Shown piece after piece: positions 1,971 to 20,331 of a stretch of DNA of 33,544 nt (within the stretch, counting starts at the first letter, position 1; every line of letters begins with the position of its first letter). The translations under genes and the position numbers were made by a program. Origin of the DNA: Candidatus Aminicenantota bacterium (GTDB lineage Bacteria > Acidobacteriota > Aminicenantia > Aminicenantales > Saccharicenantaceae); assembly GCA_002877915.1 (NCBI GenBank), contig PNJE01000029.1:1-33544 (forward strand), read 5' to 3'. The notes under the pieces are model-generated. The model did not search any database. It was not told the DNA's origin and saw only the letters and a program-made list of their open reading frames with translations.

Positions 1971-2534
1971 TCATTTTCCGGTGCTGGTATTTTTAGAAGC
2001 ATCATATCTTTTAACGACTTCCTCAGTAATATCAAAGGACGGGGTATAATAAATGAGACCCGAAGCGCTCAGGTCAAAAACCAGCTGGTAACCTCTTTCT
2101 TTTACCAGTTGATCGACAATGGACAGCATTTCATCTCTGATTTTTTTAATTAGCTGGCTTTTAAATTGTTCAAAATCACGAGATGATTCTTGCTCGTACT
2201 TTTGTCTGTCGGCTTCTTTCTTATCAATCTGCAGTTGAAGCTGAGTCAGGGCTTCCTGACTTAAAGTTAATTTTTGCTCAGTCAGTTTATCTTTAAGCGC
2301 TTTAAGCTCGTCTTCTCTATTTTTAATTTCAGCCTTGATTTGGTCTTCTTTTTCTTTAAGTATAGCTACTGCTTTTTTCCCTTCGGCTGATTGGTCAAAG
2401 GCTTTTTGGGAATTAATGATGGCTATGCGGGGAGTTTCCTGGGCCTGTCCCGGCAGGGATATCAGGGATATTAAGATTAAAATCAAGCCAAGAATAACGG
2501 CTGGGGGTGACCACAGTTGTTTCTTTGTTATCAT
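1971..2534 (-). CDS. OmpH/Skp family periplasmic chaperone
   Basis: The 187-residue protein starts with a signal peptide (hydrophobic about 11-27, likely cleavage after GQAQ near residue 32). The mature N-terminus PRIAIINSQKAFDQSAEGK is the typical Skp strand-plus-helix opening. A long charged coiled coil follows at about 55-125 (heptad-rich K, E and Q), then a return helix and the C-terminal strand element YQLVFDLSASGLIYY, also typical. Skp-family trimers hold unfolded outer-membrane proteins in the periplasm with their coiled-coil tentacles. The ATG has a strong TAGGAGG ribosome site. It is the last gene of the seven-gene minus-strand run, 34 bp after the aminotransferase. The usual neighbours bamA and lpxD are not adjacent, so this may be a second, specialised copy. 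Confidence 0.9.
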   Translation of the reverse strand: MITKKQLWSPPAVILGLILILISLISLPGQAQETPRIAIINSQKAFDQSAEGKKAVAILKEKEDQIKAEIKNREDELKALKDKLTEQKLTLSQEALTQLQLQIDKKEADRQKYEQESSRDFEQFKSQLIKKIRDEMLSIVDQLVKERGYQLVFDLSASGLIYYTPSFDITEEVVKRYDASKNTSTGK

Positions 2535-2568: not shown

Positions 2569-3681
2569 TTATTTTATATGTTTCAGACTTTGAGCGACTC
2601 TATCAAGAGCGGCGGTTAAATACTCTTGATTTGAACCATAACCAAGGCGCAAGTGCCCGTCGAGCTCGAAGTGATCACCCGGGACCAAGAGAACGCTTTT
2701 TTCTTGACGGATTTTTTCTACCAGCTCAGTGGAATTTATTTTCAGTCGATAGCCGGCAAAGAGAATGGCCCCAGCCTGCGGTTGATGGTAATAAAATAGG
2801 TCTCCGAAACTTTTAAGCCACTCTTCAAGAACTGGAAGGTTGGAGTTAAGAATTCGACGGGTTCTTCCTAAGAGCTTTTTTCTCCTCTCCGGTTGAAGGG
2901 CAACAGCCGCCAGATAATCAGTCAGGGCGGAGACTGAAATAGTGGTATAATCGTGATAAGTCCAGATTTTTTTTACCAGTTGTTCAGGACCCACCAGCCA
3001 GCCCAGTCTCAGTCCAGGAAGACCATAAGCTTTAGATAACCCTCCGACTACTATTACTTTTTCATAGCTTCCCCAGAAGGAGGAAGTCTCCTGGCCATTT
3101 CTTTCTGCCCCGCGATAAACTTCATCCACCAATAACCAGGCCCCGGCTTTTTCAGCTAAGCGAATTATTTCCTTTCGAGCTTCCTGGCTCAGGATGGACC
3201 CGGTTGGATTATTGGGATTAGTTAGTATTATTAGCTTAGTAGAGGGAGTAATAAGCTTAGGCAAATCATTCAAATCTGGTTGCCAGCCGAGCTCCTCTTT
3301 AAGCCAGAGCGGCTTGACTCTTCCACCAAAAGCTCGACTGAGCCCCCACATCTGCATGTAATTGGGGAGTTCAAAAATGACTTCATCTCCGGGTTCCAGG
3401 AGGCTCCAAACGATGAGAAAATTCGCTTCAGAGGAACCGGCGGTTACCATAATCTGTTCGAGGCCTATTCCAGGATACAAGCGGGAAATGTTTTCTCGCA
3501 GAGGTGGGGTGCCATTGGTCTGGGTATAGCCCAGCTCCTTTTTGAATAATTCTTTTATTTCCTCCGGGGTTAAGAGTTCTTCCAGATTAAGAGGATGGAC
3601 GCCGCTTTCAGACAAATTATATTCAACCACGTTTTCCCAGAGAGATTGCATTCTTTCCATTTTGAAAATTTCAATTTTCAT
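2569..3681 (-). CDS. Class I/II PLP-dependent aminotransferase
   Basis: The 370-residue protein is a fold-type I aminotransferase. Seen in order are TAGSSEANFL (about 80-89, cofactor phosphate binding), NPNNPTGS (155-162), LVDEVYRG (D186, pyridine-nitrogen contact) and GGLSKAYGLPGLRLGW (K217, Schiff-base lysine; R225 phosphate contact). It resembles the branch holding aspartate aminotransferase-like and capreomycidine-synthase-like enzymes. The N-terminus is short and contains an unusual SLWENVVEYNLSESGVHPL segment where other members bind the substrate. The acceptor is unknown. The ATG at 3681 is preceded by AGGAG; an internal ATG at 3660 is a weaker alternative. It lies 27 bp after the membrane-protein gene and 34 bp before the chaperone gene, within the same transcription unit, though it has no obvious link to phosphohydrolase function. 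Confidence 0.87.
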   Translation of the reverse strand: MKIEIFKMERMQSLWENVVEYNLSESGVHPLNLEELLTPEEIKELFKKELGYTQTNGTPPLRENISRLYPGIGLEQIMVTAGSSEANFLIVWSLLEPGDEVIFELPNYMQMWGLSRAFGGRVKPLWLKEELGWQPDLNDLPKLITPSTKLIILTNPNNPTGSILSQEARKEIIRLAEKAGAWLLVDEVYRGAERNGQETSSFWGSYEKVIVVGGLSKAYGLPGLRLGWLVGPEQLVKKIWTYHDYTTISVSALTDYLAAVALQPERRKKLLGRTRRILNSNLPVLEEWLKSFGDLFYYHQPQAGAILFAGYRLKINSTELVEKIRQEKSVLLVPGDHFELDGHLRLGYGSNQEYLTAALDRVAQSLKHIK

Positions 3682-3708: not shown

Positions 3709-4536
3709 TTAGATTTCTACTTTTAAAGGCTTCTTCAAGGCAAAGCCTATAATTAAAGAAAGAAGAAAATAAGCCACTAACCAGTGAATCTTAATTCCAA
3801 GAAAATCCAGCCTCTGGAGCGGGTAATTCAGCTCTATTTCTTTTATATAAGAATTAGCCGGCAAGGGCTTTTCTCCGGGATAAAGAAGTTCCAGCCATAA
3901 ATTCCGGCGATCACGGCGAGGAGAGATTCGCTGCCTACTTTTTCCATCTATAACTATATCTTTAAGATATCTTTCTCCGTCGACGACAATTACCAGCGGC
4001 TGACTGGATTGGCCTTCTATTTTGAGCCGCCAGTCAGCTTCATTTTCGTCAATTATCCTTAAAACAGGAGAATCAATTGTTACTTCTGGAGGGACTTCTA
4101 AATTCAAGTTCAGCCGATCTACTTCCATCTGATTTATAAACCTGACTTTAAGCAATAAGGTTTCACCCGGTTCGACCGGACGATAATTGAACCAGAGGTT
4201 CATTTGGGCTAACAAAAGAAATACAGGAATTATCATAATTAATAAGGGCTTTAAATTAAGGATTAAATATCGGGCATTGGCCAGGAGAAGCTCCTTCTGG
4301 GTGGTTAGAATTGTCCTGTAGTCATTCTGAAAAAGCCTCATTTCCAGAAGATGGGCTTTAAGCTGATTTTTAACCTGGCTGATTGCTGCTTGATTTGAGG
4401 TTTTCTTATAAATGAATAGGACTAACAGGGCAGTAAGAAAAGAAAGGAAAGTCATTCCAGCCCAAGGATTTAACCGGATAAAGGGCCAGAGAGCTATTTT
4501 GACTATAAAGCCCACCGCCTGGTTAACCAACCACAT
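3709..4536 (-). CDS. Membrane protein with Oxa1/EMC3-like layout and a large extracytoplasmic domain
   Basis: I do not recognise a named family with certainty. The 275 residues hold an N-terminal amphipathic stretch (about 2-24), a membrane segment (about 27-43), a charged helical region with QVKNQLKAHLLEMRLFQND (about 54-72) running to about residue 90, a second membrane segment (about 93-112), a beta-rich domain (about 115-240) starting YRPVEPGETLLLKVRF, and a final membrane segment (about 248-266). The pattern TM, cytoplasmic helical hairpin, TM resembles the DUF106/EMC3/TMCO1 branch of the Oxa1 insertase superfamily, but the beta domain before the last TM is unlike those. The gene has an AAGGGG ribosome site and starts 19 bp after the 63-residue protein, so it is cotranscribed with the phosphohydrolases. 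An anchoring, insertion or partner role for them is inference. Confidence 0.6.
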   Translation of the reverse strand: MWLVNQAVGFIVKIALWPFIRLNPWAGMTFLSFLTALLVLFIYKKTSNQAAISQVKNQLKAHLLEMRLFQNDYRTILTTQKELLLANARYLILNLKPLLIMIIPVFLLLAQMNLWFNYRPVEPGETLLLKVRFINQMEVDRLNLNLEVPPEVTIDSPVLRIIDENEADWRLKIEGQSSQPLVIVVDGERYLKDIVIDGKSRQRISPRRDRRNLWLELLYPGEKPLPANSYIKEIELNYPLQRLDFLGIKIHWLVAYFLLSLIIGFALKKPLKVEI

Positions 4537-4555: not shown

Positions 4556-4747
4556 TCAGGAAATATAGCCTAAACCTTTGAGTCGCTTCTTTATTTCCTC
4601 CTCTGAATCCGCCCCTTCGAATTTAGAAATTTCTTTTTCCAGCAGATGAAGGATAAACTCGTCAGCCGAGCTATACCCGGCTATCTCGGCAATCTTTACA
4701 ATTTTCTCATAAAGATCCTTTTCGATTTTAATTTTGGCTTTGCCCAT
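4556..4747 (-). CDS. Small ribbon-helix-helix-like protein (63 aa)
   Basis: A longer reading frame runs upstream to 4861, but it overlaps the phosphohydrolase gene and begins with a low-complexity out-of-frame stretch. The ATG at 4747 has a strong GAAAGGAG ribosome site and sits 29 bp after the upstream stop, so it is preferred. The 63 residues start KAKIKIEKDLYEKIVKIAE, a beta strand then helix, followed by GYSSADEFILHLLEKEI, a second helix. This is the ribbon-helix-helix (CopG/Arc) pattern, although the basic residues of a DNA-binding ribbon are modest. The C-terminus DSEEEIKKRLKGLGYIS resembles the tail found at the end of many sulfatase and phosphodiesterase proteins of the alkaline phosphatase superfamily (recalled, not searched). 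It could be a repressor of the operon or a small partner protein. Confidence 0.7.
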   Translation of the reverse strand: MGKAKIKIEKDLYEKIVKIAEIAGYSSADEFILHLLEKEISKFEGADSEEEIKKRLKGLGYIS

Positions 4748-4776: not shown

Positions 4777-6777
4777 TTAGAAAATCGATTTTCCGGTCAT
4801 TTCGGCAGGAATTTCCAGGCCAAAAAGAGATAGAATTCCGGCGGTTACATCTTCGAGGCACGGATTATTTAATCTTATTGGTCGATTGCTGAAAAGTATG
4901 CCGGGAATGACTCCTGGAGCCGACATATGATCTCCACTCCACTTCTGAGGATTGTCTTCGATGAGTTCACGCGGGAAATTGCCGAGGGGTGAATTCCAGG
5001 AAATGCGATAATTGCGGTTAAAACCAAGAATGAGATCAGGGGCCAGGTCAACATAAGGGCCGTTAAATACTTCCTTGGTGATATAAGCCTTGAGAATAAC
5101 TTTTTCTCCGGTTTTGGGATCAACTACCTGTTCGAGTTTTTGAGCCAGTTCTTTAGTAAGCCGGTTCTTTTCGCTTTGTTCAACAATTCCCCGAGCTTCC
5201 CGACCTTTAAGGTTTAAATAGAGGGCATTTAAACCCACCCCATAAGCTTTGCTTCTGGACCAATCAGTTCCTTGGAAAAGGCTAATTTCCTCCGGTTTAT
5301 ATCCAGGTTCCAGATGATGGTAGCCATTCTGCAGAAGCCAGGTATTGAGATTAAAACCGCGGCGGAAGGGATTAAAGCCGTGGTCCGAAAGAACAATGAT
5401 GGCCGTATTTTTATCGGCTTTTTCCATGGCTAATTGCAGCGCTTTGTCCATTTGCTGGTAAGTTTTTTCTATAACCTGGCCAAATTCAGCGGCCAGCTTT
5501 TCATTATAGGCGGGATGCTGGCGATCAATCAGCCTAAAAAACATATGCTGTCTTTGATCGGTATTGGAAAAATAATAAAATAACACCCCCGACCTGAAAT
5601 TTCTGAGCTCATCTTCCAGCATGGCCATGGTTTCCTGGTAAACCAGCTCATCCTGGGTTAGAAATTCCTTTTCATCCAGGACATCATTTTCTAAGGCGGC
5701 GGTGTCGGCCGGTAGCCCTTTGGTGAAAAATGGTCCAAATTTGGCGGCCAGCTCCTTGGAATAGCTATCTGGAGTTGAAACGGGCAAAGCTGGGTCTGCT
5801 GGGTCAATATTAATAGGACTGACGTAAAGTTTGAATTTTGGACGAATCTCTTTGAGATAGAATAAACAAATTCCGCTGACTCCCTGGGTTGGGAGGAAAT
5901 CAAAACGGATTTTCTTCCAGCCGCTCCACTCTTTTTCGCGGAGAATGAATTCTTGATCCTGGTAAACAATTTTAGCCACTGGATTGACCGGGTCAAGGAA
6001 AACTTTAAAATCGACGAAAGTTTCAGGATTTCCTTTTTTGAAGGGATTATTTGGACCAGGAATCCGACCTTCAACCCGGTTCCCGATAACATAAACATCA
6101 TGCACCCTTCCGCCGCCACCATATTCTTCGGTCACCGTTTTGAATTCATTGGTGTAATAATTGAATAATCCATAGTAACCTTTTATGTCCGGGGTGCCCA
6201 TGCCAGAAAAAGTTCTTTGGTGAGTTTCAACTGGAGGGTAGTTAGAGGGGATTTTAAAAACCGTAGCGGGAATGTCATAGTCTTCCAGAATCTGCCAGAA
6301 AGCCCGTCCCCGGCGCAGGTTACGGACCTGGCCACCAGACAGCGGCAGGATTAAATTGCCTAATCGCAGGTTATGGCTGGCCGGAAGACTCTCGGAAGCT
6401 GAAAAAATCGGGAGGTAGGTTTTTGGGTCGCGGTGGACAAAGTCGAAAATGGCATGACCGCCTGGATTGGTGCCAGTGATAAAATTAGCCCAGGCCACCG
6501 GGCTCTGGGGAGGGATGCTGGTATTTAGAGGGCTGAAACTTCCACTGGCGGCCAGTTTTTTGAAGTAGGGAAGCTTACCTTCTTCCATATATCTTTGAAC
6601 CAGAACCGGGTCCATTCCATCGAATCCCAACACCAAAACCTTAAGCCCGGTTTCCCGACGACCCGAGGTTCGTAGAAGGGACAGGCCTGGTTTTATTAGC
6701 AGGCCGGCAGAAGCCCCCAGAATTAATTGCAAGAATTCTCGGCGCTTGAGCCCTTCAGTGTCTTTTTCTCCGGTCAT
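4777..6777 (-). CDS. Alkaline phosphatase superfamily phosphohydrolase (COG3379-like), Tat-exported
   Basis: The 666-residue protein opens with a twin-arginine signal: KRREFLQ (R12, R13) and a hydrophobic stretch to about residue 35. The enzyme domain shows the alkaline-phosphatase-superfamily metal ligands: GFDGMD (D53), the nucleophile region PPQSPVAWANFITG (S92), SNTDQRQHMFF (D and H), LSDHGFNPFRRG (D and H) and SGDHMSAPG (H). Family members cleave phosphomono- or diesters with two zinc ions; the substrate here is unknown. A middle region of about 150 residues separates the halves of the fold and has a counterpart in the 744-residue neighbour. The start has AAAGGTG upstream and overlaps the preceding gene by 23 bp, pointing to coupled translation. 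Tat export suggests that the enzyme folds, and perhaps takes up metal, before leaving the cytoplasm. Confidence 0.85.
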   Translation of the reverse strand: MTGEKDTEGLKRREFLQLILGASAGLLIKPGLSLLRTSGRRETGLKVLVLGFDGMDPVLVQRYMEEGKLPYFKKLAASGSFSPLNTSIPPQSPVAWANFITGTNPGGHAIFDFVHRDPKTYLPIFSASESLPASHNLRLGNLILPLSGGQVRNLRRGRAFWQILEDYDIPATVFKIPSNYPPVETHQRTFSGMGTPDIKGYYGLFNYYTNEFKTVTEEYGGGGRVHDVYVIGNRVEGRIPGPNNPFKKGNPETFVDFKVFLDPVNPVAKIVYQDQEFILREKEWSGWKKIRFDFLPTQGVSGICLFYLKEIRPKFKLYVSPINIDPADPALPVSTPDSYSKELAAKFGPFFTKGLPADTAALENDVLDEKEFLTQDELVYQETMAMLEDELRNFRSGVLFYYFSNTDQRQHMFFRLIDRQHPAYNEKLAAEFGQVIEKTYQQMDKALQLAMEKADKNTAIIVLSDHGFNPFRRGFNLNTWLLQNGYHHLEPGYKPEEISLFQGTDWSRSKAYGVGLNALYLNLKGREARGIVEQSEKNRLTKELAQKLEQVVDPKTGEKVILKAYITKEVFNGPYVDLAPDLILGFNRNYRISWNSPLGNFPRELIEDNPQKWSGDHMSAPGVIPGILFSNRPIRLNNPCLEDVTAGILSLFGLEIPAEMTGKSIF

Positions 6778-8989
6778 GATTTTTCACCTTTGTCATTTTC
6801 TTCGCCTGATTTTCTGATTCAGTCGCTTTTGTCTCCTGGGGCCTAAACTGCAGGAGCGATTTCCCGTCCATATATTTTGGCGCCTCCAGGCCAAAAAGGC
6901 CCAGGACAGTAGGGGCGATATCCATTATAGAAGGATTTTTTGAATCGAGCTTCAAATTAGTGAAAAAGACACCCGGCACCACCGCCGGATCAAGGCAATG
7001 ATCGGCACTCCAGGCTTTTTTATTATCTTCGAAGACGACCTGATTTACCCGGCCAGTTACTGAATCCCAAGAAGCTCGATACCCAATATTATAACCGACG
7101 ATCAAATCAGGTGCATTCGAGCGATAGGGACCCTGGTAGATTTTTTCTGTATCGATCAGGCGATTTATAGCTACCTGGTTTTTTTCTGGATCTTTAAGCC
7201 CGGAAAGTTTTTCGATTAGTTCCTGTTTGAGCTTCTGACTTTCTTCTCCTGGCTGGATAATTCCTGAGGATTCCCGACCTTTCAGGTTAAGGTAAATTCC
7301 AGCCAATCCCAGAGCATAGGCCTTGGTTCGGCTCCAATCAACCTGCTTGAACCACTCGTCGCTTTCCCGGGCGCCCTCTTTTAAGTAAAGGTAGCCATTT
7401 AGATAAAGCCAGGAATTTAAATTCACTCCCCGGCGGAAAGGCTTGAACCCATGATCGGACATTATAATTAGAGCTGTCCGCTCATTCATTTTTTCTCTCA
7501 CTCGGGCTACCAAATCGTCCATCTTCTGATAAAGATTTTCTATTACTTTGAAGCCATCAGTCAAGTTAGCGGTGGCCTGATAGGCTGGATGGCTTTTGTC
7601 TAAATAACGCCAGAACATGTGCTGGATGCTGTCCGTTGTTTCGAAAACGCAGGCCACCAATCCTTTCCTTGTTTTTTTCAGAGCATTGAAAAAAATATTT
7701 TCCCAGTCCTGGTGAAAAGAGTAGGCTAAATCAAGAAAAGCCTGGTCTGGGAGAACTCCCTCGTTTAGAGCCCAGGTATCATTAGCTTCACCCAGAGTGA
7801 CATAGCTGCCGAAAAGTTTAGCCAGATAAGAAGAATAGATAAAAGGGTGAGAGATCGGCAGGGCCGGCTTTTCCGGATCAATATTCAGGGGAGTAATATA
7901 TAGCTCGAAGTGAGGCTGAGTGCTCAGTAAATAGAATCTGGCTATCCCTCTTACTTTCATTCCCAGGCCGGTCGGGAAGCTCAGCTTTATCCAGGGAGAA
8001 AAGACGCCTTTTTGTAGTTCAAAAGACTGGCCGGAAACCTTAATGGTAACTTTATTCGGGTCGGAACCAAATTGTATTATGAGCGGCAAGCTGATTTCTT
8101 CCGGCTTTTTCAAAAGAGAATTTTCCGGTCCGCGGATAATTGTGTCAATAATATCTCCTTGACGACTTACCAGGAGGCTTTCGCCGCCTTCTTTTTTACT
8201 AATTCTATCTGGGTTAGTAGTATAAAAAAGAAAGGTCCCCTGACTGCCCTTGAGATCCGGTAAACACATTCCTGACAGCAGATGCCCAGCAAATTTTTCT
8301 GGTGGGAACGTTATCGGCACCCGGAGTACCGTAGAAAAAATCCCATTTTCCCCCAGAATCTTCCAGAAAGCCTGGCTCTTACGAAGAAGCCTGATTTCGG
8401 GTCTGGTGAGCGGCAGGCGGAATTTTCCAATAGTCAAGAACCTGGTTGGTGGACCGATGCGGGCGGAGGATAAATCGGGAAGGTAGGTTTTGGGGTTACG
8501 ACTTAAAAAGTCAAAAATGTTATGCTTGGAAGGCTCACAACCAGTCATAAAGGAAGACCAGGCTACCGGACTGATAGCTGGAGTGGTCGTTTGAAGGCGG
8601 CTAAAGGTTCCTTCTTTTTTCAGGCGGCTGAGATTGGGCAGTTTTCCTTCGGCCATGTATTTTTCGGCTAATTCTGGATCCATTCCGTCAAATCCGAGAA
8701 TAATAACTTTGTCCACCAGGCTATTTTTATAGGCTTTTTGGCCACGAAGAAGTCGCCATAATAACCGGAATGGCCAGGAAAGCAAAGAAAAAATTGACAG
8801 GAAAAATGTCAGGATAAAAACCAGAAAAGAGGATAAAAAGGCAAAACCGGCTCCCGGTCCGATATAAGCTTCAGCCGGCCTGGCAATTAGCAGGCAAAAA
8901 AGCAGGAAAAATAAAATCAGAATGACTTTTTTGGATGGGCAGAAAGAAGAAACATCATAAGTTGAATTCTCTATTGTTTTGGCCGTCAT
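6755..8989 (-). CDS. Alkaline phosphatase superfamily phosphohydrolase (COG3379-like) with N-terminal YIGPGAG membrane module
   Basis: The 744-residue protein has a Sec-type hydrophobic signal (about 21-37), a likely cleavage at PAEA, then YIGPGAG (about 42-48) and another membrane segment (about 49-70) followed by the basic WPFRLLWRLLRG. The phosphohydrolase domain follows, with ligands as in its neighbours: GFDGMD (D101), TPAISPVAW (S140), TTDSIQHMFW, MSDHGFKPFRRG and SADHCLDP. It is close in sequence to the 666-residue protein over the whole enzyme domain, so the two look like duplicates with swapped N-termini. The ATG overlaps the upstream stop in an ATGA, so it is translationally coupled and lacks its own clear ribosome site. 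If the second segment is an anchor, the membrane orientation decides which side the enzyme faces; the basic stretch after it would favour a cytoplasmic domain. Topology is therefore open. Confidence 0.84.
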   Translation of the reverse strand: MTAKTIENSTYDVSSFCPSKKVILILFFLLFCLLIARPAEAYIGPGAGFAFLSSFLVFILTFFLSIFSLLSWPFRLLWRLLRGQKAYKNSLVDKVIILGFDGMDPELAEKYMAEGKLPNLSRLKKEGTFSRLQTTTPAISPVAWSSFMTGCEPSKHNIFDFLSRNPKTYLPDLSSARIGPPTRFLTIGKFRLPLTRPEIRLLRKSQAFWKILGENGIFSTVLRVPITFPPEKFAGHLLSGMCLPDLKGSQGTFLFYTTNPDRISKKEGGESLLVSRQGDIIDTIIRGPENSLLKKPEEISLPLIIQFGSDPNKVTIKVSGQSFELQKGVFSPWIKLSFPTGLGMKVRGIARFYLLSTQPHFELYITPLNIDPEKPALPISHPFIYSSYLAKLFGSYVTLGEANDTWALNEGVLPDQAFLDLAYSFHQDWENIFFNALKKTRKGLVACVFETTDSIQHMFWRYLDKSHPAYQATANLTDGFKVIENLYQKMDDLVARVREKMNERTALIIMSDHGFKPFRRGVNLNSWLYLNGYLYLKEGARESDEWFKQVDWSRTKAYALGLAGIYLNLKGRESSGIIQPGEESQKLKQELIEKLSGLKDPEKNQVAINRLIDTEKIYQGPYRSNAPDLIVGYNIGYRASWDSVTGRVNQVVFEDNKKAWSADHCLDPAVVPGVFFTNLKLDSKNPSIMDIAPTVLGLFGLEAPKYMDGKSLLQFRPQETKATESENQAKKMTKVKNHDRRKRH

Positions 8990-10284
8990 TTAATTTTTTT
9001 TAAGATAATGCCCGCCAGGTCTTCAATGGCCAGGTCCGGACCATAATCATCAGTTGCCAAAAAGAAAGCATCGTCCCAGGTATGCATGCCCTGGAGATAA
9101 CTGCGGCCGAATATTTCTTTTTTCTTGATTGAGCCTTTTAAATCAAAACCCGGTTCAGACAGAGCAATAAGATCGGGCCCTCGGGAAGCGTATTTTCCCT
9201 TGTATATCTCTTCAGATTTGAATACCCGACGAATTACTTTCTGTCCTTTATATTCAAGCTGCAAAAGTTTTTGAGCGATTTCTTCTTTTAAGGCTTTTTT
9301 ATCAGCCCGGTCGACTCGACCCCGAGGGAACTTGTTTTTCAAGTTCAGGTAAATTCGGTTTGGGTCAAGAGCAAAGGCCAGAGTTTTGGGAGAAATATCC
9401 TCCAGGCTTTTTGGGGTCGGGGTGGTAAAAGAAAGGTAACCCTGTTCTTCCAACCAGGCATTGAGATAAACTTCCTGGGTTATGCCGGTAAATCCATGAT
9501 CCGAAAGGAGAAAGAATTGGCTTTCATCCTGGTCCATCTTCTTAAACCCATTCAGGATTTTCCCGATGATCCGGTCTATTTGCTGATAGAAATCCAAGAA
9601 GGCCTGATGGTAAGGATGGTTTTTATCCTGATAAGCCGGCCAAAGAAAATGGTGCAGGCGATCGGTTCCGGTAATTACAAATTCGAATAGGTCCCAGTCC
9701 TGCTCCCAGAAATAATTTAGAGCCTTCTGATGGCTGGCCATTGTCTTCGAGAGTTCCTGCCAAAGAAAGTTCAAATTATCCACTACCCGGGAAGTATCCA
9801 CATCAATCTGGTAACCCATCTGCTCTAACGTAGGAAAGAAACTCTGGGGGTAAACTGACCGGGACAGGTCGACGGCCACAAAGCCAGAGATCATTACCCC
9901 ATTTATTCTTCGGGCCGGGTAGGTTGAGGGTTGGTTGATTACGATGCTTTTTAAGCCCCGGTGTCCCAGACTATCCCAGATGGTTTCAGTTTTCAAGTCC
10001 AAAAAATTGGGCACCCGGAGATCATAACTGCCCCCTTTAAAATCAGTAAAGCCAAAGATTCCATGAGTGCCGGGGTTAGTTCCGGTCATAAAATTTGTCC
10101 AGGAAACAGCCGATATCTCTGGCAGGCTGGCTTTCATCTGGTGGAGGTGGCCGCTATCTATCAACCGGGCAACAGTGCTCATAACGCCGGTCTTCGCCAG
10201 GTCTAGAAGCATCGAATAGGGGACCCCGTCGAGCCCGACAATGCAAACTTTCTTGACGGGTTTATTTTTTTTAAAAATAGCCAT
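8986..10284 (-). CDS. Alkaline phosphatase superfamily phosphohydrolase (COG3379-like), no signal peptide
   Basis: This is the first gene of the operon. The 432 residues begin with a short basic stretch and enter the enzyme domain at once: VGLDGVPYSML (D19), LPEISAVSWTNFMTG (S58), TGTDRLHHFLW (D208, H212), LSDHGFTG (D262, H263) and a late GMHTWDD (H). All expected two-metal ligands and the nucleophile are present. No signal or membrane segment is seen, so a cytoplasmic place is likely, unlike its two neighbours. It also lacks most of the ~200-residue middle region of the two larger paralogues. COG3379 proteins are annotated as predicted phosphohydrolases or phosphomutases, and no substrate can be assigned. 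The start codon lies only about 10 bp after a consensus -10 box, so the message may be leaderless. Its stop overlaps the next start (ATGA). Confidence 0.85.
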   Translation of the reverse strand: MAIFKKNKPVKKVCIVGLDGVPYSMLLDLAKTGVMSTVARLIDSGHLHQMKASLPEISAVSWTNFMTGTNPGTHGIFGFTDFKGGSYDLRVPNFLDLKTETIWDSLGHRGLKSIVINQPSTYPARRINGVMISGFVAVDLSRSVYPQSFFPTLEQMGYQIDVDTSRVVDNLNFLWQELSKTMASHQKALNYFWEQDWDLFEFVITGTDRLHHFLWPAYQDKNHPYHQAFLDFYQQIDRIIGKILNGFKKMDQDESQFFLLSDHGFTGITQEVYLNAWLEEQGYLSFTTPTPKSLEDISPKTLAFALDPNRIYLNLKNKFPRGRVDRADKKALKEEIAQKLLQLEYKGQKVIRRVFKSEEIYKGKYASRGPDLIALSEPGFDLKGSIKKKEIFGRSYLQGMHTWDDAFFLATDDYGPDLAIEDLAGIILKKIK

Positions 10285-10294
10285 TTCTCAATTT

Positions 10295-10322
10295 ATTATA
10301 TCACCATACCTCTACCTGTCAA
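10295..10322 (-). promoter_or_regulatory. Sigma70-type promoter of the phosphohydrolase operon
   Basis: On the minus strand, TTGACA (10317-10322) and TATAAT (10295-10300) are both exact consensus with a 16-bp spacer. Transcription would start near 10288, only a few bases before the ATG at 10284, and no Shine-Dalgarno fits between. This suggests a leaderless or near-leaderless transcript. Confidence 0.75.
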
Positions 10323-12704: not shown

Positions 12705-15407
12705 TTATATTTTTCCCATCTTAAACCGGTAATCACCAGCTTCCACCCAGAAGACCGGGGAGTGATTTTTCTCCGCTGGGGCAAGGCCAGAAGCATTTTC
12801 GGGGATGACAAAATCAGAACCTTCCCAGAGGATAATTTCTGATTCCTGAATTTTGCTCACTGGCCAAAGCTTGGGGAAATAAAGTTTTGCCCGGCTGCCA
12901 ACGGGTACCTTCAGCTCCAAGAGGAACTCTGTTCCAGTTTTTTCCCAGCTAACGGCAATTTCTCCGTAAATTGTCTGAACCTGGCTTTTGACCCAGCTTA
13001 TTTCTCCTTCAGCGAAGGGCTTTAAACGGAATATTTTCCATCCCGATTCTATCGGCTGAAGGCCAACCAGATTTTTATATAGCCAGGCATCCAGGCTGCC
13101 AAACATTACATGATTATGCGAATTCATTCCTCGGCCGGTTAGCTTTTCCCACCTTTCCCAGAGAGTGGTAGCTCCTTCCCGGATCATATATCCCCAGCCC
13201 GGGTAGCTTTCCTGAAGGATAATTTTAAGAGCCACTTCCGGGCGGTCAAAGCGGCTCAGGACATCCAGAAGGTAACGGGTGCCAATTATTCCTGTATCAA
13301 GGTGATAATCATGGTGGACGATAATTGATTCTAAAAGATTCTGCCAGACAGCTGACCGGCAGTCTTCCGGCACCAAATCAAGATAAAGAGGAAGCAAATT
13401 TGAGGTTTGATCAGGTAGCCGATCAATCGGTCCTTGCCTTATTGCTTTGTACTGGTCCTTTTCCAAGAAAGCCCCATTAAAAGCAGCTTTAATCTGGTTT
13501 GATAGTTCTCGGTATTCTCGAGCTTCTTCTTGCCTTCCGACTAATTCGCAGATTTCGGAAAAAATAAGGATATCATGATAATAAAACCAGGTAGCCACCA
13601 ATTCTACTGGAGTTTTCTTTGGGACCAAGCTTCCCGGCTGGCACCAGTCGCCATATTTTCCCAGGACTAACTGCAGGTTTCCGGTAGACTTTTTTTTCAG
13701 GAAATCTATGTAATTTTTAAGATTCTGGAAATGCCTCCGAAGAATATCCCGGTCGCCATAATATTGATAAAGGTGCCAGCAAAGACTGATATAGGCTGAT
13801 CCCCAGGCTGGGTCAGCTGGATAAACTCTTGGATTGTAGGGAGGAACAAAATCCGGCAGGCTGCCATCTTCTTTTTGAGCCTGTCGAATTAAGTTAATAA
13901 AATGGTTGTAAAAGGCCGCCAGGTCAAAATTAAAAGAGGCCTCTTCGGCCGTCATTAAGGCATCAGCCAGCCATCCGTGGCGTTCATCCCGCTGGGGGCA
14001 ATCGGTTGGAAGGCTCATCAGATTGGCTTTCTGGGAATTAATTATATTGCGGTGAATTTGATTAATTAGAGGATTAGAACATTCAAATGAACCGGTCTCT
14101 TCCACATCAGAATGAATAAAACAGGCTTCCAGAGTTTCGGAATCGGGCTTTCCCGGGAATCCGGCCAGCTCCACGTATCTGAATCCATGATAGGTAAAAT
14201 GAGGTTCGAATATTTCTTCTCCCTGACCTTTAAGAATGTAGATATCTGTCGCCCGAGCATTATCGTTGGTCGCTGAATTAAGGCTGCCATCCTCGTTAAG
14301 GAGCTCGGCGTACCTCAATCTGATAGTAGTTCCTTCGGGACCCTGGACTTTGAGCCTGGCCCAACCTGAAATATTCTGGCCAAAATCAAATACATAAACC
14401 CCACGGTCAAAGGAAATAATATTTACAGGCTTCAGGCGCGCTTTGATTTTTATCGGAGGGATATTTTGAGCGGCTAACGGTGGCCCTGAAACTAACACGG
14501 CTTTTTTCCAGCTGGAATCATCGAAGCCGTAATTATTCCAGCCAGGCTGCTCCTTTCTGGCATCATAATTTTCACCGAAATAAAGTCCGTTTTCTTCAAC
14601 CGGTCCGTGGGCTGCTTTCCAGGTATCATCACTGGTAATAACCTCAAAGCCGCCTTTTTCATAATATATTTCCAACCAGAAAATCAGTTTCGGCTGATCA
14701 TAGCCGTATTTTTTAATATGCCGACCGTTCCCTAAGATAACCCCGATAGCATTTTTGTCTGAGATGAGCTCGGTTACTTCATAGACCGAGTAAAAAGCAA
14801 CCTGACGATAATCAGACCAGCAAGGATCGAGCCGGCTGTCTCCAATCCTCCGGCCATTTAAATAAAGCTCATAATATCCGAGGCCGCTGATGTAGGCGGT
14901 AGCTCGAATCGCCCTGCCCCGGCAGCTAAATTCTTTTCTTAGGTAAATGGCCTTGTACTGAATATTTGGAGCCTCTTCTTGACCAAGAAGAATAGTTTTT
15001 TCGGCCAAAAAAGATTCCGGGTCAGCCATAGAAATCCAGTTGGCTCGAAATTTGGAGAGGCCCATGAAACCGGTACCAAAAACAGCTACTTCGCTGTAAG
15101 GACTTACTTGACCGGAAGAATTCCACCAGCGGACCCTCCAAAAGTATTTCTGGCAGCTCAAAAGTTCCTCTCCGGCATAGGGTATGTGGGTAGAGGCTTG
15201 GCTTATTACTTTTTCGCTATCCCAAAAATCGCCAATTTCTTTTTCGGCAATTTCCCTTTCTGAAGCTACTATTATTTGATAAGCAGTTTGATAATCTCCC
15301 CGCAGATCGCTTTTCATTTTCCAGAAGAACCTCGGCCGGGGAATGTCCAGCGCCGGTGGGCACTTTAAGTATTCAACTCTAAGGTCATAAGGTGGGTAAA
15401 GAGGCAT
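12705..15407 (-). CDS. Alpha-L-rhamnosidase, GH78 family
   Basis: The 900-residue protein has the full GH78 layout: N-terminal beta domains (about 1-330) with a jelly-roll portion (GYYELYLNGRRIGD and VILGNGRH), then an (alpha/alpha)6 barrel. The hallmark DCPQRDERHGWLAD (about 466-479) holds the general acid glutamate, and ATTLWERWE (about 748-756) belongs to the barrel region carrying the proposed base. A C-terminal beta domain ends the protein. The family releases terminal alpha-L-rhamnose from glycosides, flavonoids or polysaccharides by inversion. There is no signal peptide, so it likely works in the cytoplasm on imported rhamnosides, consistent with the kinase and isomerase on the same strand. 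The ATG has a GGAG site; 135 bp separate it from the HD-GYP gene, with no clear promoter between, so read-through from upstream is plausible. Confidence 0.93.
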   Translation of the reverse strand: MPLYPPYDLRVEYLKCPPALDIPRPRFFWKMKSDLRGDYQTAYQIIVASEREIAEKEIGDFWDSEKVISQASTHIPYAGEELLSCQKYFWRVRWWNSSGQVSPYSEVAVFGTGFMGLSKFRANWISMADPESFLAEKTILLGQEEAPNIQYKAIYLRKEFSCRGRAIRATAYISGLGYYELYLNGRRIGDSRLDPCWSDYRQVAFYSVYEVTELISDKNAIGVILGNGRHIKKYGYDQPKLIFWLEIYYEKGGFEVITSDDTWKAAHGPVEENGLYFGENYDARKEQPGWNNYGFDDSSWKKAVLVSGPPLAAQNIPPIKIKARLKPVNIISFDRGVYVFDFGQNISGWARLKVQGPEGTTIRLRYAELLNEDGSLNSATNDNARATDIYILKGQGEEIFEPHFTYHGFRYVELAGFPGKPDSETLEACFIHSDVEETGSFECSNPLINQIHRNIINSQKANLMSLPTDCPQRDERHGWLADALMTAEEASFNFDLAAFYNHFINLIRQAQKEDGSLPDFVPPYNPRVYPADPAWGSAYISLCWHLYQYYGDRDILRRHFQNLKNYIDFLKKKSTGNLQLVLGKYGDWCQPGSLVPKKTPVELVATWFYYHDILIFSEICELVGRQEEAREYRELSNQIKAAFNGAFLEKDQYKAIRQGPIDRLPDQTSNLLPLYLDLVPEDCRSAVWQNLLESIIVHHDYHLDTGIIGTRYLLDVLSRFDRPEVALKIILQESYPGWGYMIREGATTLWERWEKLTGRGMNSHNHVMFGSLDAWLYKNLVGLQPIESGWKIFRLKPFAEGEISWVKSQVQTIYGEIAVSWEKTGTEFLLELKVPVGSRAKLYFPKLWPVSKIQESEIILWEGSDFVIPENASGLAPAEKNHSPVFWVEAGDYRFKMGKI

Positions 15408-15542
15408 TATTCTTTCTCCAATATTTAGGAATAAAAATCATTTTAATCTTAGTTAAAATTATTCTGGCCGACCTGATTTCCAGCAGGATAAGCATCTGTA
15501 ATTTTTATCATTTTTTATCTCCAGAAGAAGACCCTTTGGCTT

Positions 15543-16997
15543 TCAGGTTTCTACCCTGGCCAGAAAATAATCAGCGGCGTTTAGACCATACTCTTCACCG
15601 TTTATTTCTTTGACAATTGTTCGTCGATATTTTTTGGCTTCAGGATCAACTTCTGTTAAATCCACCACTTCTCCGTCGATCTTGTTTCCCTGCGAGTCAA
15701 CAACTATTTTCACTCTGGGTCTCAGCATGAATTTGGATTCCTGATTATTCTCCACTACCAATCCGATTTCTCCGGTATTGAGCAAGACCAGAGAACCAAT
15801 CGGAAAGACACCCATCATTTGAACAAAAGTTTTTAGAATAAGGGGATTGAATTCACTCCCGATATACTCCAGCATCAAGCTGAGTGCTTCTGCCCGGGTG
15901 AAAACTTTTTTCCGGTAGACGCGCTTGGTGGTAATGGCATCAAAAAAATCGCAGACCTTGACGATGCGGCTATAAAGATTGATATCATTCTTAATTCGAT
16001 AACGGGGGTAGCCAGTCAGATCTTCCTTGATATGATGCTCCATAGCCACGTGGATAGCACTTAGCGGCAGGCGCCGGAACTCTCTCAACTGAATCAGCTT
16101 TTCTGCTCCCTGGTGCGGATGGAGTTCCATTATTTTCCTTTCTTCTTCCGTCAGTTGCCCTGGCTTATTTAAAATTTCGAGCGGGGTATCAATCTTTCCT
16201 AAATCGTGGAAAAAAGCAGCTATTCCCAGGTCAACTAATTCGGCTCTCGATAATCCTAATCGCCGACCAAGAGCGATTGCCAGGAGACAAACATTGACTG
16301 AATGATTAAGGGTATATTCATCATGGTTCTTAATATTGGTCAGTCCCATCAAAAATGATTCGTTATCTATCAGGTGATTGAAAATTGATTGAATAAGCCT
16401 TCGAGTGGTGTTAAGCTTAATTTTTTCATTTTCTTTATTTCTTTCTGATATTTCTCTTAAATGAAGAATGCTCAGGAAAAAAAGCCGGGCCGAGCTTTTT
16501 TCGGGGCTGGGCAATTTTTCGGCGGCCTCAATTTTTTCCAGACCTACCCCAGTTATTCCTTGATTTCCGAGTTCGCTGATTATCTCTACGAAAGGATCGG
16601 CTGAAGTTCTTTTCTGGCTGATTATCCCCATAGCCTTTACCAGTTCCGGCTTGGAAAGCTCAGGGTAAAAAATCAGCTGGCCAATCTCTTTTTTCCGAAA
16701 TTCTTCCAGCAAGAATTTGAAAATAGGATAGTTGGCGATCGAGAATTTCAGCCTCGATTGGTTAAAGAAAATTGATTCCCGCTTGATTCGAAAAATCACT
16801 TCCCCGGCTGTCTCCTTTAATCTTTGCAGGTCCTGGAAAAGAAGTTCGGTTTGCTCCTGAATCAATTCATTATTTTCAGCATATAATTTTAAAATCTTGT
16901 AAACCAGATAAAATCGGATTAAGAAATTTATAGCCAATTTCTGGCTGGCTAAGCCAGCTTCTTTGATTTCGCCAGCAGTAGAGATATTTTCGACCAT
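15543..16997 (-). CDS. HD-GYP-like phosphohydrolase with an additional N-terminal domain
   Basis: The 484-residue protein ends in an HD-GYP-type domain (about 225-400): NHSVNV (H232), FFHDLGKID (H264, D265), LHPHQG (about 292-297), HHIKEDLTGYP (321-331) and DFFDAIT. HD-GYP enzymes hydrolyse cyclic-di-GMP or cGAMP. Here the usual HHExxDGxGYP is altered (third position I, and L for the first glycine) while the metal ligands and GYP remain, so activity is likely but not certain. The first 200 residues form a helical-plus-strand domain (about 25-130) that resembles the N-terminus of the adjacent HEAT protein. There is no membrane segment or receiver domain. The ATG (AAGGA site) begins one base after the HEAT stop, which points to coupled translation and a shared function. 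Confidence 0.85.
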   Translation of the reverse strand: MVENISTAGEIKEAGLASQKLAINFLIRFYLVYKILKLYAENNELIQEQTELLFQDLQRLKETAGEVIFRIKRESIFFNQSRLKFSIANYPIFKFLLEEFRKKEIGQLIFYPELSKPELVKAMGIISQKRTSADPFVEIISELGNQGITGVGLEKIEAAEKLPSPEKSSARLFFLSILHLREISERNKENEKIKLNTTRRLIQSIFNHLIDNESFLMGLTNIKNHDEYTLNHSVNVCLLAIALGRRLGLSRAELVDLGIAAFFHDLGKIDTPLEILNKPGQLTEEERKIMELHPHQGAEKLIQLREFRRLPLSAIHVAMEHHIKEDLTGYPRYRIKNDINLYSRIVKVCDFFDAITTKRVYRKKVFTRAEALSLMLEYIGSEFNPLILKTFVQMMGVFPIGSLVLLNTGEIGLVVENNQESKFMLRPRVKIVVDSQGNKIDGEVVDLTEVDPEAKKYRRTIVKEINGEEYGLNAADYFLARVET

Positions 16998-16998
16998 T

Positions 16999-18885
16999 TT
17001 ATTTCCTTGATGATTTTTTTAAGGTTAAACGAACCAGAGCTGAGGCAGCTGCTTCCCGGACTTTTCGATTAAAAATCTTTTCTCCCCGGCGTAGCACTTC
17101 CACCGCTTCTTTTGTTTCCATGGCTTCAAGCCCGGCGACCGCGCCTAAGCGGAGCTCGGTAATAGAAGGGCGGAGAGATTTTTTTAAAAAAACTTTCTTT
17201 AAAAAATCAAAAGCTTCCTGGCTTCGGGTTTTCCCCAAGAATTCAAAAAAAGCCTTCTTCTCTTCATAGTGTTTTTCCTTAAATTTCTTGGTAAAAACTT
17301 CTTTCATCAATTGCTTCAATTTAGCTGTATCCCCAAGAAACTTCAAACTGGTCGTAGCTTTCAATCGAACTTCCTGGGAGCTATCTTCTAAAAAGCCTAA
17401 CAAAATCCGATTGGCCATTTCGTCACTAAATGAGCTCAGGGCTTCAATGGCTTTAATTTTTAGTTCCTGGTTGGATAGAGTAAGGAAACTGGAGAAATGA
17501 GGGATAATTTTTTTCCCGGGTTGGCTTCGCATTATTTCGATAATGGCCGCGGTCAGCTGTGGTCGCTGATCGTCGATTAGGCTAACAATTAAGCCGGGAT
17601 CAAACTGAATTTTATTCTGGAATAGTTCTTTAGTTTTGTCTCTATATTCTTGGTAGTCAATATATTCATATAGCTCGGCTAAAAAGGGCAAAGCTGTCTC
17701 GCCAAATTGGGCCAGATAATCAAACAGGGCCGAAAAGTTCAATTCAACTCTTTCTTTTACCAGCTTTCTGATTTCGTCAAAAAGTTTCAAATCAGAAGTC
17801 CGATTTAAGAAGTCCTCTAATAAAGGTATTTTGCTATCAGGCTCAGAGGCGAGCAGCGCCTTAAGTTCTTTTATTTTTTGGTTGAGCTGGATGGGAATAT
17901 TGAAGTGGCCGTTCTTAATATTTTCCTGGTAAAAATCATAAAGAATATTCAGGTTGGTTTGGAATTGGTTCAAGTCTTTTTCCTGGGCTAAGATTTCCAT
18001 CATCAAGTTCAAAAATTCCTCTTCGGCCGAAAGCTGGCGATTTTTTTCTACCAACTGATTGAGCTGCTTAAGTTCTTCCTGGGTGAGAGAAAGTTCTGAA
18101 GGAATTTTTTTGGCGGCTGGAATGGCCTTTTCTTCCGGCTGGCTAACTTCCGGGGTTGATTCTTTTTTCTGCTGTTCGCCTTCAAAATAAAAACTCTGTT
18201 GCCAATTTTCTGGTAACTCCAAGAATTCTTCCTCAGTAAATGATTCCAGAGCTTGCTTTTCTTCTGGTTTTAGTTCCACCTTTCCTGAAAAGAGGCTTGA
18301 CCGATCGACAGTAATTTCGATGGCTTTGTTGGCCAGCTCCTGGGGGATTATTTGAAGGCCCTTTTTACTCAAGGTCTCGGCTCTTTCTTCCAGGATTCGA
18401 TTTTCTATGAATTCTTCGGGAGCATAATACTGAACGTTGGGCAGATCTTTAAGCCACAGGGCATTTACCAGGTCAGACTCTTCAGCGGTCTTGGCTGATT
18501 CTGTTCGGACTAATTCTAAAAATTCATTTATTTCCTGCTCATCCATTCCCTGGTAGAAAACTAACAGTCTGAGGCCGTCTTTATAAAAAAGGAAGGGAAG
18601 ACTTTTACTGGAAATTTCGTCCTGGTAAACCTGCTTTCCCTGATAGAAAAAGGCATATTCTCCCATCTCTATTTCCAGTTGCTGGTACTCTTCCAGAAAG
18701 CTTTTAAACTTGGTGATGAAATCCTGGCGAAAATGGATAGCTGAGGTATGATGGGCCGGGAAAATTTTTAGAGCTGAAATAGTATTGGCTAAGGAAAGAA
18801 GGAGTTCTTTTACTTTCTGGATCGCCCGAGGATCGACTTCCTCGGTTGATTTTTGGGCCTGGCGAACTTTTTCTTCTAAAGGCAT
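16999..18885 (-). CDS. HEAT-repeat protein, likely partner of the HD-GYP-like protein
   Basis: The 628-residue soluble protein has three parts. An N-terminal domain (about 20-150) contains ISALKIFPAHH, EYAFFYQGKQVY and LRLLVFYQGMDEQEINEFLEL. A charged linker (about 200-270) is rich in E, Q and K with a proline/alanine tract. A long alpha-helical region (about 265-628) follows, with HEAT repeats clearest near the end, for example PHFSSFLTLSNQELKIKAIEALSSF, SSQEVRLKATTSLKFLGD and ELRLGAVAGLEAMETKEAVEVL. HEAT solenoids bind partners rather than catalyse. One base separates it from the HD-GYP gene, so a complex is likely. The ATG at 18885 has no clear Shine-Dalgarno, and no firm promoter was seen in the 80 bp after rhaA. 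Its location inside the rhamnose block may be chance. Confidence 0.72.
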   Translation of the reverse strand: MPLEEKVRQAQKSTEEVDPRAIQKVKELLLSLANTISALKIFPAHHTSAIHFRQDFITKFKSFLEEYQQLEIEMGEYAFFYQGKQVYQDEISSKSLPFLFYKDGLRLLVFYQGMDEQEINEFLELVRTESAKTAEESDLVNALWLKDLPNVQYYAPEEFIENRILEERAETLSKKGLQIIPQELANKAIEITVDRSSLFSGKVELKPEEKQALESFTEEEFLELPENWQQSFYFEGEQQKKESTPEVSQPEEKAIPAAKKIPSELSLTQEELKQLNQLVEKNRQLSAEEEFLNLMMEILAQEKDLNQFQTNLNILYDFYQENIKNGHFNIPIQLNQKIKELKALLASEPDSKIPLLEDFLNRTSDLKLFDEIRKLVKERVELNFSALFDYLAQFGETALPFLAELYEYIDYQEYRDKTKELFQNKIQFDPGLIVSLIDDQRPQLTAAIIEIMRSQPGKKIIPHFSSFLTLSNQELKIKAIEALSSFSDEMANRILLGFLEDSSQEVRLKATTSLKFLGDTAKLKQLMKEVFTKKFKEKHYEEKKAFFEFLGKTRSQEAFDFLKKVFLKKSLRPSITELRLGAVAGLEAMETKEAVEVLRRGEKIFNRKVREAAASALVRLTLKKSSRK

Positions 18886-18965
18886 GTTTTTATACGGCCG
18901 TTAATAGTTTAATTTTTTTTGGAATAATCAGTCAAATTCAATCAAAAGTTGTCAATCAGGCAGCC

Positions 18966-20231
18966 TTAATCCCGCTGGCTGAGAATGTTTTTTTCGTAGC
19001 TTTTAACTTCTGACAGCCATAAATTTTCCGGGGGGACATTCAGGCTAAGACAGTAATAATCCCAAACTGGACCAAAAGGTAACTCCTGAGATAGTTGCCT
19101 CCAGGCCAGTTTGGTTAGGCTGTCGCCTTTAAGTTCGGCTTCTTTAATTTGCTTCCAGGGCAGAAGAAGAGCTCTCAGCAGGCCTCTTAAGGTTGCTCTT
19201 GCTCCCAACACCCAGGCACCGATTCTGTTCATAGAGGCGTCAAAATAATCAAGGGCCAGATATATTTTTTCTGGGGCTGGAGCGTTGACGATTTCCTGAC
19301 ATAAAATCTCAATTTCATCATTTAATATGACCACATGATCACTATCCCAGCGCAGGCCCCGGCTGAGGTGCAGCAGGATTTCTCCGGTAAATGGCAAAAT
19401 AGCTGAAAGCTTATCAGCTACCAATTCAGTTGGATGAAAATGTCCCAGGTCTAAGCAGACCATTTTGCCTTTTTTTAGAGCATATCCTAAATAAAATTCG
19501 TGCGACCCAGTTACAAAGGCCTCACTGCCAATTCCAAAAAGTTTGCTTTCCAGAGAATCTTTAAGCTGGGTTTGGCTGTAATCGATTTCAAAAATTTCCT
19601 CAAGGGATTCATAGAGCCATTTTCGATATAGCCAGCGGTCTGAGGGCCATTCTTTAAGGCCATCTGGAATCCAGAGATTATGAATGGAAAAGGATTTCAG
19701 TTCCCGCCCAAAAAAGGCGGCAATTTTCCGGCAGTTTTTAACATGCTCAATCCAGAATTTCCGGATCTCTTTTTTGGGATTACTGAGGGTTAAACCGTCG
19801 GCTGCCTTTGGATGGGCAAAGCAGGTAGCATTGAAATCCAGTTTCAGGTCATTAGCCTTAGCCCATTCTAACCAGCCCCGGAAATGACTGGGCTCATATT
19901 CATTTCTTTCTACCGGTCCGTTAAATTCACCGTATATTGAGTGCAAGTTGACCCGGTGCTTCCCGGGAATTAAAGACAGAGCTTTTTCCATATCTTGCCG
20001 GAGTTCAGAGACATTTCTGGCCCGTCCAGGATAATTTCCGGTCACCTGAAGACCAGATCTACTCAGCTCCGATGGATGGTATTCGAAACCCCTGACGTCA
20101 TCGCCTTGCCAGCAATGAATTGATAGCTGGAAGTTTTTCAATCGCCCGAGGGCTTCTTCTGTATCAATTTCCAGCTCGGCAAATTTTTGCTTAGCTTCAA
20201 AATATTGCTTCTCTATGGTTCGGTCATCCAT
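18966..20231 (-). CDS. rhaA: L-rhamnose isomerase
   Basis: The 421-residue protein matches the classical RhaA family in both length (E. coli has 419) and sequence. Visible landmarks are SIHCWQGDDVRGFE, TGNYPGRARNVSELR, KHRVNLHSIYGE, LDFNATCFAHPKA, CLDLGHFHPTE (metal-binding histidine) and RWDSDHVV (metal-binding aspartates). It converts L-rhamnose to L-rhamnulose in the cytoplasm, using manganese and another divalent ion. The ATG has a strong GAGGAGG site. A promoter (20256-20284) lies in the 100-bp gap after rhaB, so it may be transcribed both from there and from the rhaB promoter. No rhaD aldolase or rhaT-type transporter is in the window. Confidence 0.95.
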   Translation of the reverse strand: MDDRTIEKQYFEAKQKFAELEIDTEEALGRLKNFQLSIHCWQGDDVRGFEYHPSELSRSGLQVTGNYPGRARNVSELRQDMEKALSLIPGKHRVNLHSIYGEFNGPVERNEYEPSHFRGWLEWAKANDLKLDFNATCFAHPKAADGLTLSNPKKEIRKFWIEHVKNCRKIAAFFGRELKSFSIHNLWIPDGLKEWPSDRWLYRKWLYESLEEIFEIDYSQTQLKDSLESKLFGIGSEAFVTGSHEFYLGYALKKGKMVCLDLGHFHPTELVADKLSAILPFTGEILLHLSRGLRWDSDHVVILNDEIEILCQEIVNAPAPEKIYLALDYFDASMNRIGAWVLGARATLRGLLRALLLPWKQIKEAELKGDSLTKLAWRQLSQELPFGPVWDYYCLSLNVPPENLWLSEVKSYEKNILSQRD

Positions 20232-20255
20232 CTTTTACCCTCCTCGGCCTTTTTG

Positions 20256-20284
20256 ATTATTATTATTTCCCGTCTTATTGTCAA
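20256..20284 (-). promoter_or_regulatory. Sigma70-type promoter upstream of rhaA
   Basis: On the minus strand, TTGACA (20279-20284), a 17-bp spacer and AATAAT (20256-20261, 5 of 6) lie between rhaB and rhaA. The predicted start is about 18 bases before the rhaA ATG. An internal promoter would allow rhaA to be expressed apart from rhaB. Confidence 0.6.
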
Positions 20285-20331
20285 GACAGCCTTCAATCAA
20301 TTTAGCCAGAATTACCCAGCAAAAATTGACT

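Follow-up and report, generated by a model that had tools for sequence, protein, structure and literature searches.

Published accounts (PMC8675477, PMC8887752) assign the DUF106/EMC3/TMCO1 branch of the Oxa1 superfamily to archaea and eukaryotes and regard YidC as the superfamily's bacterial representative, and we found no description of a bacterial DUF106/EMC3-type protein in the open-licence literature. Among the described systems to which the protein considered here, EMC3L, can be compared, MJ0480 ('archaeal YidC'; PF01956, PDB 5c8j) has the same order of elements, with profile similarity that runs from the N-terminal helix to TM2 and is weak in TM3. The two differ in the segment that separates the parts of TM2 and TM3 covered by the match, which has 46 residues in MJ0480 (126 to 172) and about 126-131 in EMC3L, where an Ig-like domain is predicted; unlike the MJ0480 gene, that of EMC3L has phosphodiesterase genes as neighbours, and its host bacteria possess YidC as well. 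The eukaryotic proteins EMC3 and TMCO1 (PF01956), the commonest Pfam match of the EMC3L family, likewise have three TMs and a cytoplasmic hairpin, whereas EMC3L has a fused Ig-like domain added and lacks a direct match to TMCO1 at the sequence level. Bacterial YidC (PF02096) is placed in the same superfamily by published work (PMC8675477), but EMC3L shows no profile similarity to it, lacks the TM hairpin that YidC has between TM2 and TM3, and resides in another gene neighbourhood. The enzymes encoded beside EMC3L, which we call PDE1, PDE2 and PDE3, resemble type I phosphodiesterases / nucleotide pyrophosphatases (PF01663) by family match, and the metal ligands and nucleophile position are intact in PDE1 and PDE2; unlike known PF01663 members, the cassette enzymes carry a large family-specific insert, and PDE2 has in addition an N-terminal YIGPGAG membrane segment.

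EMC3L is encoded in a window of 33,544 nucleotides (the whole stretch of DNA that was analysed) from a 2.55-Mb draft genome of the Acidobacteriota, G000, of Candidatus Saccharicenans type. The gene and the predicted parts of its product are given below in window coordinates.

3709..4536, minus strand: EMC3L, 275 aa, ATG start; very probably an archaeal-type (DUF106/EMC3/TMCO1) Oxa1-superfamily protein, with a predicted Ig-like insert.
4480..4533, minus strand: EMC3L N-terminal helix, residues 2-19, from the AlphaFold2 model; the MJ0480 alignment begins here.
4399..4467, minus strand: EMC3L TM1, residues 24-46 (AlphaFold2), with conserved S32, T35 and K/R44.
4189..4392, minus strand: EMC3L hairpin arms, residues 49-68 and 73 to about 92, running on into TM2 (to 116) (AlphaFold2); predicted to be cytoplasmic; contains P97 and P104.
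3787..4182, minus strand: EMC3L beta region, residues 119-250, predicted to be extracytoplasmic; residues 120-200 are Ig/filamin-like.
3733..3783, minus strand: EMC3L TM3, residues 252-268 (AlphaFold2), with invariant W252 and conserved S260 and K/R268.

The EMC3L reading frame is a real, conserved gene, well beyond what chance would give. Of 40 close relatives, 37 have a full-length homologue free of internal stops, and a sample of 297 genomes taken over the Acidobacteriota contains homologues in 77 of them, representing 44 of 166 genera; nearly all of these are full length, a few are partial at contig ends, and none has internal stops. Identities across the two sets are 25-69%. In the alignment of these 77 sequences, S47, Q49, P97, P104 and W252 are invariant, with S47 and Q49 forming an SxQ motif after TM1, W169 and P220 are invariant or nearly so, and K56, Y90, R170, K192 and E222 are nearly invariant. 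The cytoplasmic end of TM1 bears a basic residue (K/R44) in 75 of the 77 homologues, which may be the equivalent of R31 of EMC3, the basic residue at the cytoplasmic end of its TM1. Homologues are also found in records labelled Gemmatimonadetes, Planctomycetota, Dadabacteria, Desulfobacterales and Clostridiales, for which mislabelling, contamination and transfer are all open explanations; 20 relatives of the 'Gemmatimonadetes'-labelled record contain no EMC3L homologue.

The predicted structure, an AlphaFold2 model built with the 77-sequence alignment (mean pLDDT 92.3, pTM 0.82), has helices at residues 2-19, 24-46, 49-68, 73-116 and 252-268 and strands from 126 to 250. The elements follow in the order TM1, cytoplasmic helical hairpin, TM2 and TM3, and the orientation in the membrane was deduced from the distribution of charges. 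The N-terminal helix can be likened to EH1/H0, the peripheral helix that proteins of the Oxa1 superfamily have on the extracytoplasmic side. An earlier note on this DNA had described a TM, a charged helical pair, a second TM, an added extracytoplasmic beta domain and a third TM; the model reproduces this order, folds the charged region into a hairpin as the note held, and places an Ig-like region between TM2 and TM3. In its details the earlier description overlooked the helix at residues 2-19 and gave about 125 residues for a TM2-TM3 connection that is ~131 residues long. When the full model is compared with known structures (Foldseek, VIA), it matches mainly Ig-like folds, at residues 120-200, and this region superimposes on Ig and filamin domains with Z about 6 and rmsd of 2.0-2.7 over 71-78 residues. 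The scores are middling and indicate for this region an Ig-like fold and no more. The position between TM2 and TM3 is hypervariable, and its occupation by an Ig-like domain represents a third form, of which we found no description in the open-licence literature.

Judging from sequence profiles, EMC3L in all likelihood represents the DUF106/EMC3/TMCO1 branch of the Oxa1 superfamily in bacteria. A single-sequence search of the PDB sequences gave no useful match, and NCBIfam has no family for the protein. The sole Pfam match of EMC3L alone is EMC3_TMCO1 (PF01956), at 16.7 bits against a cut-off of 27.1, and one homologue lies above this curated cut-off, at 29 bits. With E <= 1, 15 of 39 homologues match EMC3_TMCO1 (best 1.5e-5), which makes it the commonest family among the members. 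A profile of the 39 sequences, searched against 177,635 PDB sequences, has a sole significant match, the archaeal DUF106 protein MJ0480 (E 4.5e-10), which the 77-sequence profile matches at E 9e-10, and hhalign gives 93-94% for EMC3L against MJ0480. The match spans the N-terminal helix, TM1, the hairpin and TM2, and the aligned positions include prolines and the D/N-Q after TM1; a second, weak match in TM3 (MJ0480 172-197) is by itself not significant (i-E 24 and 4.4e3).

For the helical core, the comparison of folds showed no clear match. Modelled separately, the core (residues 1-121, pLDDT 83.8) aligns with TMCO1 (entry 7tut, whose chain 8 was taken as TMCO1 from its length and because the entry has a single TMCO1 chain) with Z 7.0 and rmsd 3.6 over 103 residues, but unrelated chains with long helices score equally or higher. 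The matches listed for the core (Foldseek, VIA) are long-helix proteins with no clear winner, and EMC3 and MJ0480 are absent among them. The placement in this branch, which had been proposed before, is supported by the profiles and by the predicted arrangement. One might instead regard EMC3L as a membrane scaffold of other descent that carries an Ig-like domain, in which the likeness of the core reflects the common TM-coiled-coil-TM arrangement, and both the failure of the core comparison to single out the Oxa1 family and the sub-threshold Pfam score of EMC3L itself would fit such a protein. We consider this very unlikely, given that native MJ0480 scores 38.3 bits while 999 shuffles that keep its TM/hydrophilic pattern reach a maximum of 12.8, that the prolines and the D/N-Q after TM1 match MJ0480, and that a DUF106 protein is the one significant match in the PDB.

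EMC3L was also considered as a YidC and rejected: none of the 39 members matches PF02096 at E <= 1, and hhalign gives 0.2% against 18 YidCs of the phylum. A canonical YidC is encoded elsewhere in the EMC3L-bearing genome. PF01956 also matches proteins of 500-600 aa in other families of the phylum, which are probably YidCs that cross-match and not EMC3L; in G066 and G092 the match to PF01956 overlaps the one to PF02096. A second PF02096 protein, which is short (212 aa, 75 bits), is present at G040:C2:809512-810042, and weak PF02096 matches occur within frames of 350-456 aa at G061:C19:703-828 and in G074:C98, G087:C92 and G045:C9; these short or weak matches are possible other Oxa1-like proteins. 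A search of 21 genomes for an EMC6-type partner (PF07019) gave none, with a model that is insensitive and that, among the control genomes, matches Haloferax alone, below the cut-off.

The features of the run of genes around EMC3L in the window, all on the same strand, are listed here from the promoter onwards.

10295..10322, minus strand: promoter TTGACA-16-TATAAT, a perfect extended consensus, with its end some 10 nt upstream of the start codon of PDE3.
8986..10284, minus strand: PDE3, a third type I phosphodiesterase, the operon's first gene in Aminicenantia and outside the phylum-wide core.
6755..8989, minus strand: PDE2, type I phosphodiesterase, with catalytic residues D101, S140, D453, H457, D512, H513 and H664.
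8847..8866, minus strand: DNA of PDE2 encoding YIGPGAG, the motif's only match in the genome.
4777..6777, minus strand: PDE1, type I phosphodiesterase, with an RRxFL (Tat-type) signal and catalytic residues D53, S92, D407, H411, D465, H466 and H617.
4556..4747, minus strand: RHH-like small protein, 63 aa, adjoining EMC3L across the phylum, with a conserved C-terminal tail KRLKGLGYIS.
2569..3681, minus strand: aminotransferase, class I/II, after a 27-nt gap; linked in near relatives only.
1971..2534, minus strand: OmpH/Skp-like periplasmic protein, the last gene of the run; linked in near relatives only.

The PDE3 promoter is conserved upstream of PDE3 in many Aminicenantia loci (for example L078, L088, L091 and L123), with TG-TATAAT in many, and its end about 10 nt before the start codon suggests that the operon transcript is leaderless or nearly so. 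Farther along the window, at 12705-21810, lie genes for the use of rhamnose, which encode alpha-L-rhamnosidase, the rhamnose isomerase RhaA and an FGGY kinase, interspersed with genes for HD-domain and HEAT-repeat proteins.

EMC3L belongs to a conserved cassette in Acidobacteriota, with the gene order PDE2, PDE1, small RHH-like gene and EMC3L recurring in loci across the phylum. We surveyed 98 loci that extend 5 kb or more upstream of EMC3L, some genomes being counted twice. A phosphodiesterase is the immediate upstream neighbour in all 98, 93 of them have both PDEs, and the RHH gene was detected in 93. Co-occurrence was counted by hand over the 297 genomes, with PDE2 orthologues accepted at E <= 1e-200: PDE2 and EMC3L are found together in 73 genomes, PDE2 alone in 2, EMC3L alone in 4, and neither in 218, so that EMC3L is present in 73 of the 75 genomes with a PDE2 orthologue versus 4 of the 222 without one. 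The 4 genomes with EMC3L only are all drafts of at least 390 contigs. As for the two with PDE2 only, in G108 the contig stops at the expected site of EMC3L, 82 bases beyond the end of PDE1. G190, whose assembly has broken frames, encodes PDE2 and a PDE1-like lipoprotein with no RHH or EMC3L nearby, which means that PDE2 may not strictly need EMC3L. The RHH gene occurs in 77 of the 77 EMC3L genomes, and the genomes with RHH only have weak matches only (E 2e-4 to 8e-7), which are probably paralogues. The same enzyme families also occur in a different arrangement, at L212 5860-7707, where a phosphodiesterase that lacks the YIGPGAG membrane segment precedes another phosphodiesterase and then a sulfatase-like membrane protein; EMC3L was not found in that genome.

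This distribution bears on whether EMC3L could be a second insertase, or a membrane chaperone, of general function that lies in the PDE operon by chance. Well-studied members of the superfamily do insert membrane proteins, and EMC can replace Oxa1 in mitochondria (PMC8887752), which speaks for such a role. EMC3L, however, is present in only 77 of the 297 genomes, nearly always with PDE2, PDE1 and RHH, and because it tracks one enzyme cassette it is unlike a housekeeping insertase; moreover, a general insertase is not needed, since a canonical YidC is present in the genome. We therefore hold a general function in insertion to be improbable.

The phosphodiesterase genes around EMC3L match Pfam Phosphodiest (PF01663) at E 4e-31 to 5e-42, and in 112 PDE1 and 93 PDE2 sequences the metal ligands and the Ser/Thr nucleophile of the alkaline phosphatase superfamily are at least 93% conserved. 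The PDE2 profile matches the structures of NPP1/2 and phosphonoacetate hydrolase; no solved relative was found with the PDE1 profile. The two enzymes appear to be placed differently with respect to the membrane. PDE1 has an RRxFL (Tat-type) signal in Aminicenantia and a lipobox or a Sec-type signal elsewhere, and because of these signals it is likely to be exported and extracytoplasmic. The N-terminus of PDE2 consists of a signal-like segment, an A-YIGPGAGFAF motif, one further TM and then a basic stretch, and since the basic stretch follows the TM (positive-inside rule), the catalytic domain is probably cytoplasmic. YIGPGAGFAF (residues 42-50), presumably at the N-terminus of the mature protein, shows at least 93% conservation among the 93 PDE2 sequences, and we found no mention of it in the open-licence literature. 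The DNA pattern for YIGPGAG occurs once in each of 4 matching genomes, at PDE2, and does not occur in 3 others, one of which, G086, has the cassette and lacks an exact pattern match. The RHH-like protein has the appearance of a ribbon-helix-helix protein and matches no Pfam family at the cut-off. A tail of the form (K/R)RLxxLGY(I/L), as in the RHH protein, also ends the phosphodiesterase at L212 7704-9158 and the gene that immediately precedes PDE3 in L051, L053 and L157, the proteins being otherwise different.

The earlier note had suggested that EMC3L may insert, hold or present the phosphohydrolases or their lipid substrate, which is compatible with the conservation of the cassette. To account for the linkage, we tentatively propose that EMC3L is an Oxa1-type membrane subunit dedicated to the two PDEs, which it would insert and hold; this is the likeliest of the readings considered, and we give it somewhat less than an even chance. 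The groove and the cytoplasmic hairpin of EMC3L would receive and hold the N-terminal membrane (YIGPGAG) segment of PDE2, whose catalytic domain would remain in the cytoplasm, while the Ig-like domain would dock the exported PDE1 on the opposite face. PDE1 and PDE2 could then each work, from its own side, on a phosphodiester substrate carried by the membrane, with the RHH protein probably serving as a regulator or adaptor. A more far-reaching version, in which bacteria would have recruited an archaeal/ER-type Oxa1 fold as the channel through the membrane for a phosphodiesterase machine with two sides, with a lipid-linked phosphodiester passed between PDE2 and PDE1 and the Ig-like domain gating or docking outside, seems to us unlikely.

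Some enzymes of the alkaline phosphatase superfamily act on lipid headgroups, and the main rival to a dedicated inserting and holding subunit is a lipid-headgroup translocator (scramblase), in which a phospholipid or lipid-linked phosphodiester would cross the membrane via the hydrophilic groove of EMC3L and PDE2 and PDE1 would act on the leaflets in turn. Such an activity has precedents in the superfamily, as YidC, Oxa1 and Get1 scramble lipids in vitro, and Emc3 and TMCO1 do so in simulation (PMC10491306). The predicted location of PDE1 and PDE2 on opposite faces of the membrane would suit a translocator, as would the availability of YidC for protein insertion. Against this, the lipid nature of the PDE substrate is an assumption, no conserved charged residue stands out at mid-membrane in the 77-sequence alignment, and the scrambling of lipids by insertases may be a side activity. 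On balance we regard translocation of a lipid headgroup as possible and rather doubtful.

If EMC3L does serve the phosphodiesterases as their dedicated inserting and holding subunit, it would represent a natural case of an Oxa1-type protein devoted to one enzyme cassette, with few candidate clients. Because it is tied to a single cassette with so few candidates, the distinction between a client-specific insertase and a lipid translocator becomes directly testable in this system. The linkage of EMC3L with PDE1 and PDE2 also offers an initial clue to what the phosphodiesterases of this widespread and so far uncharacterised family do.
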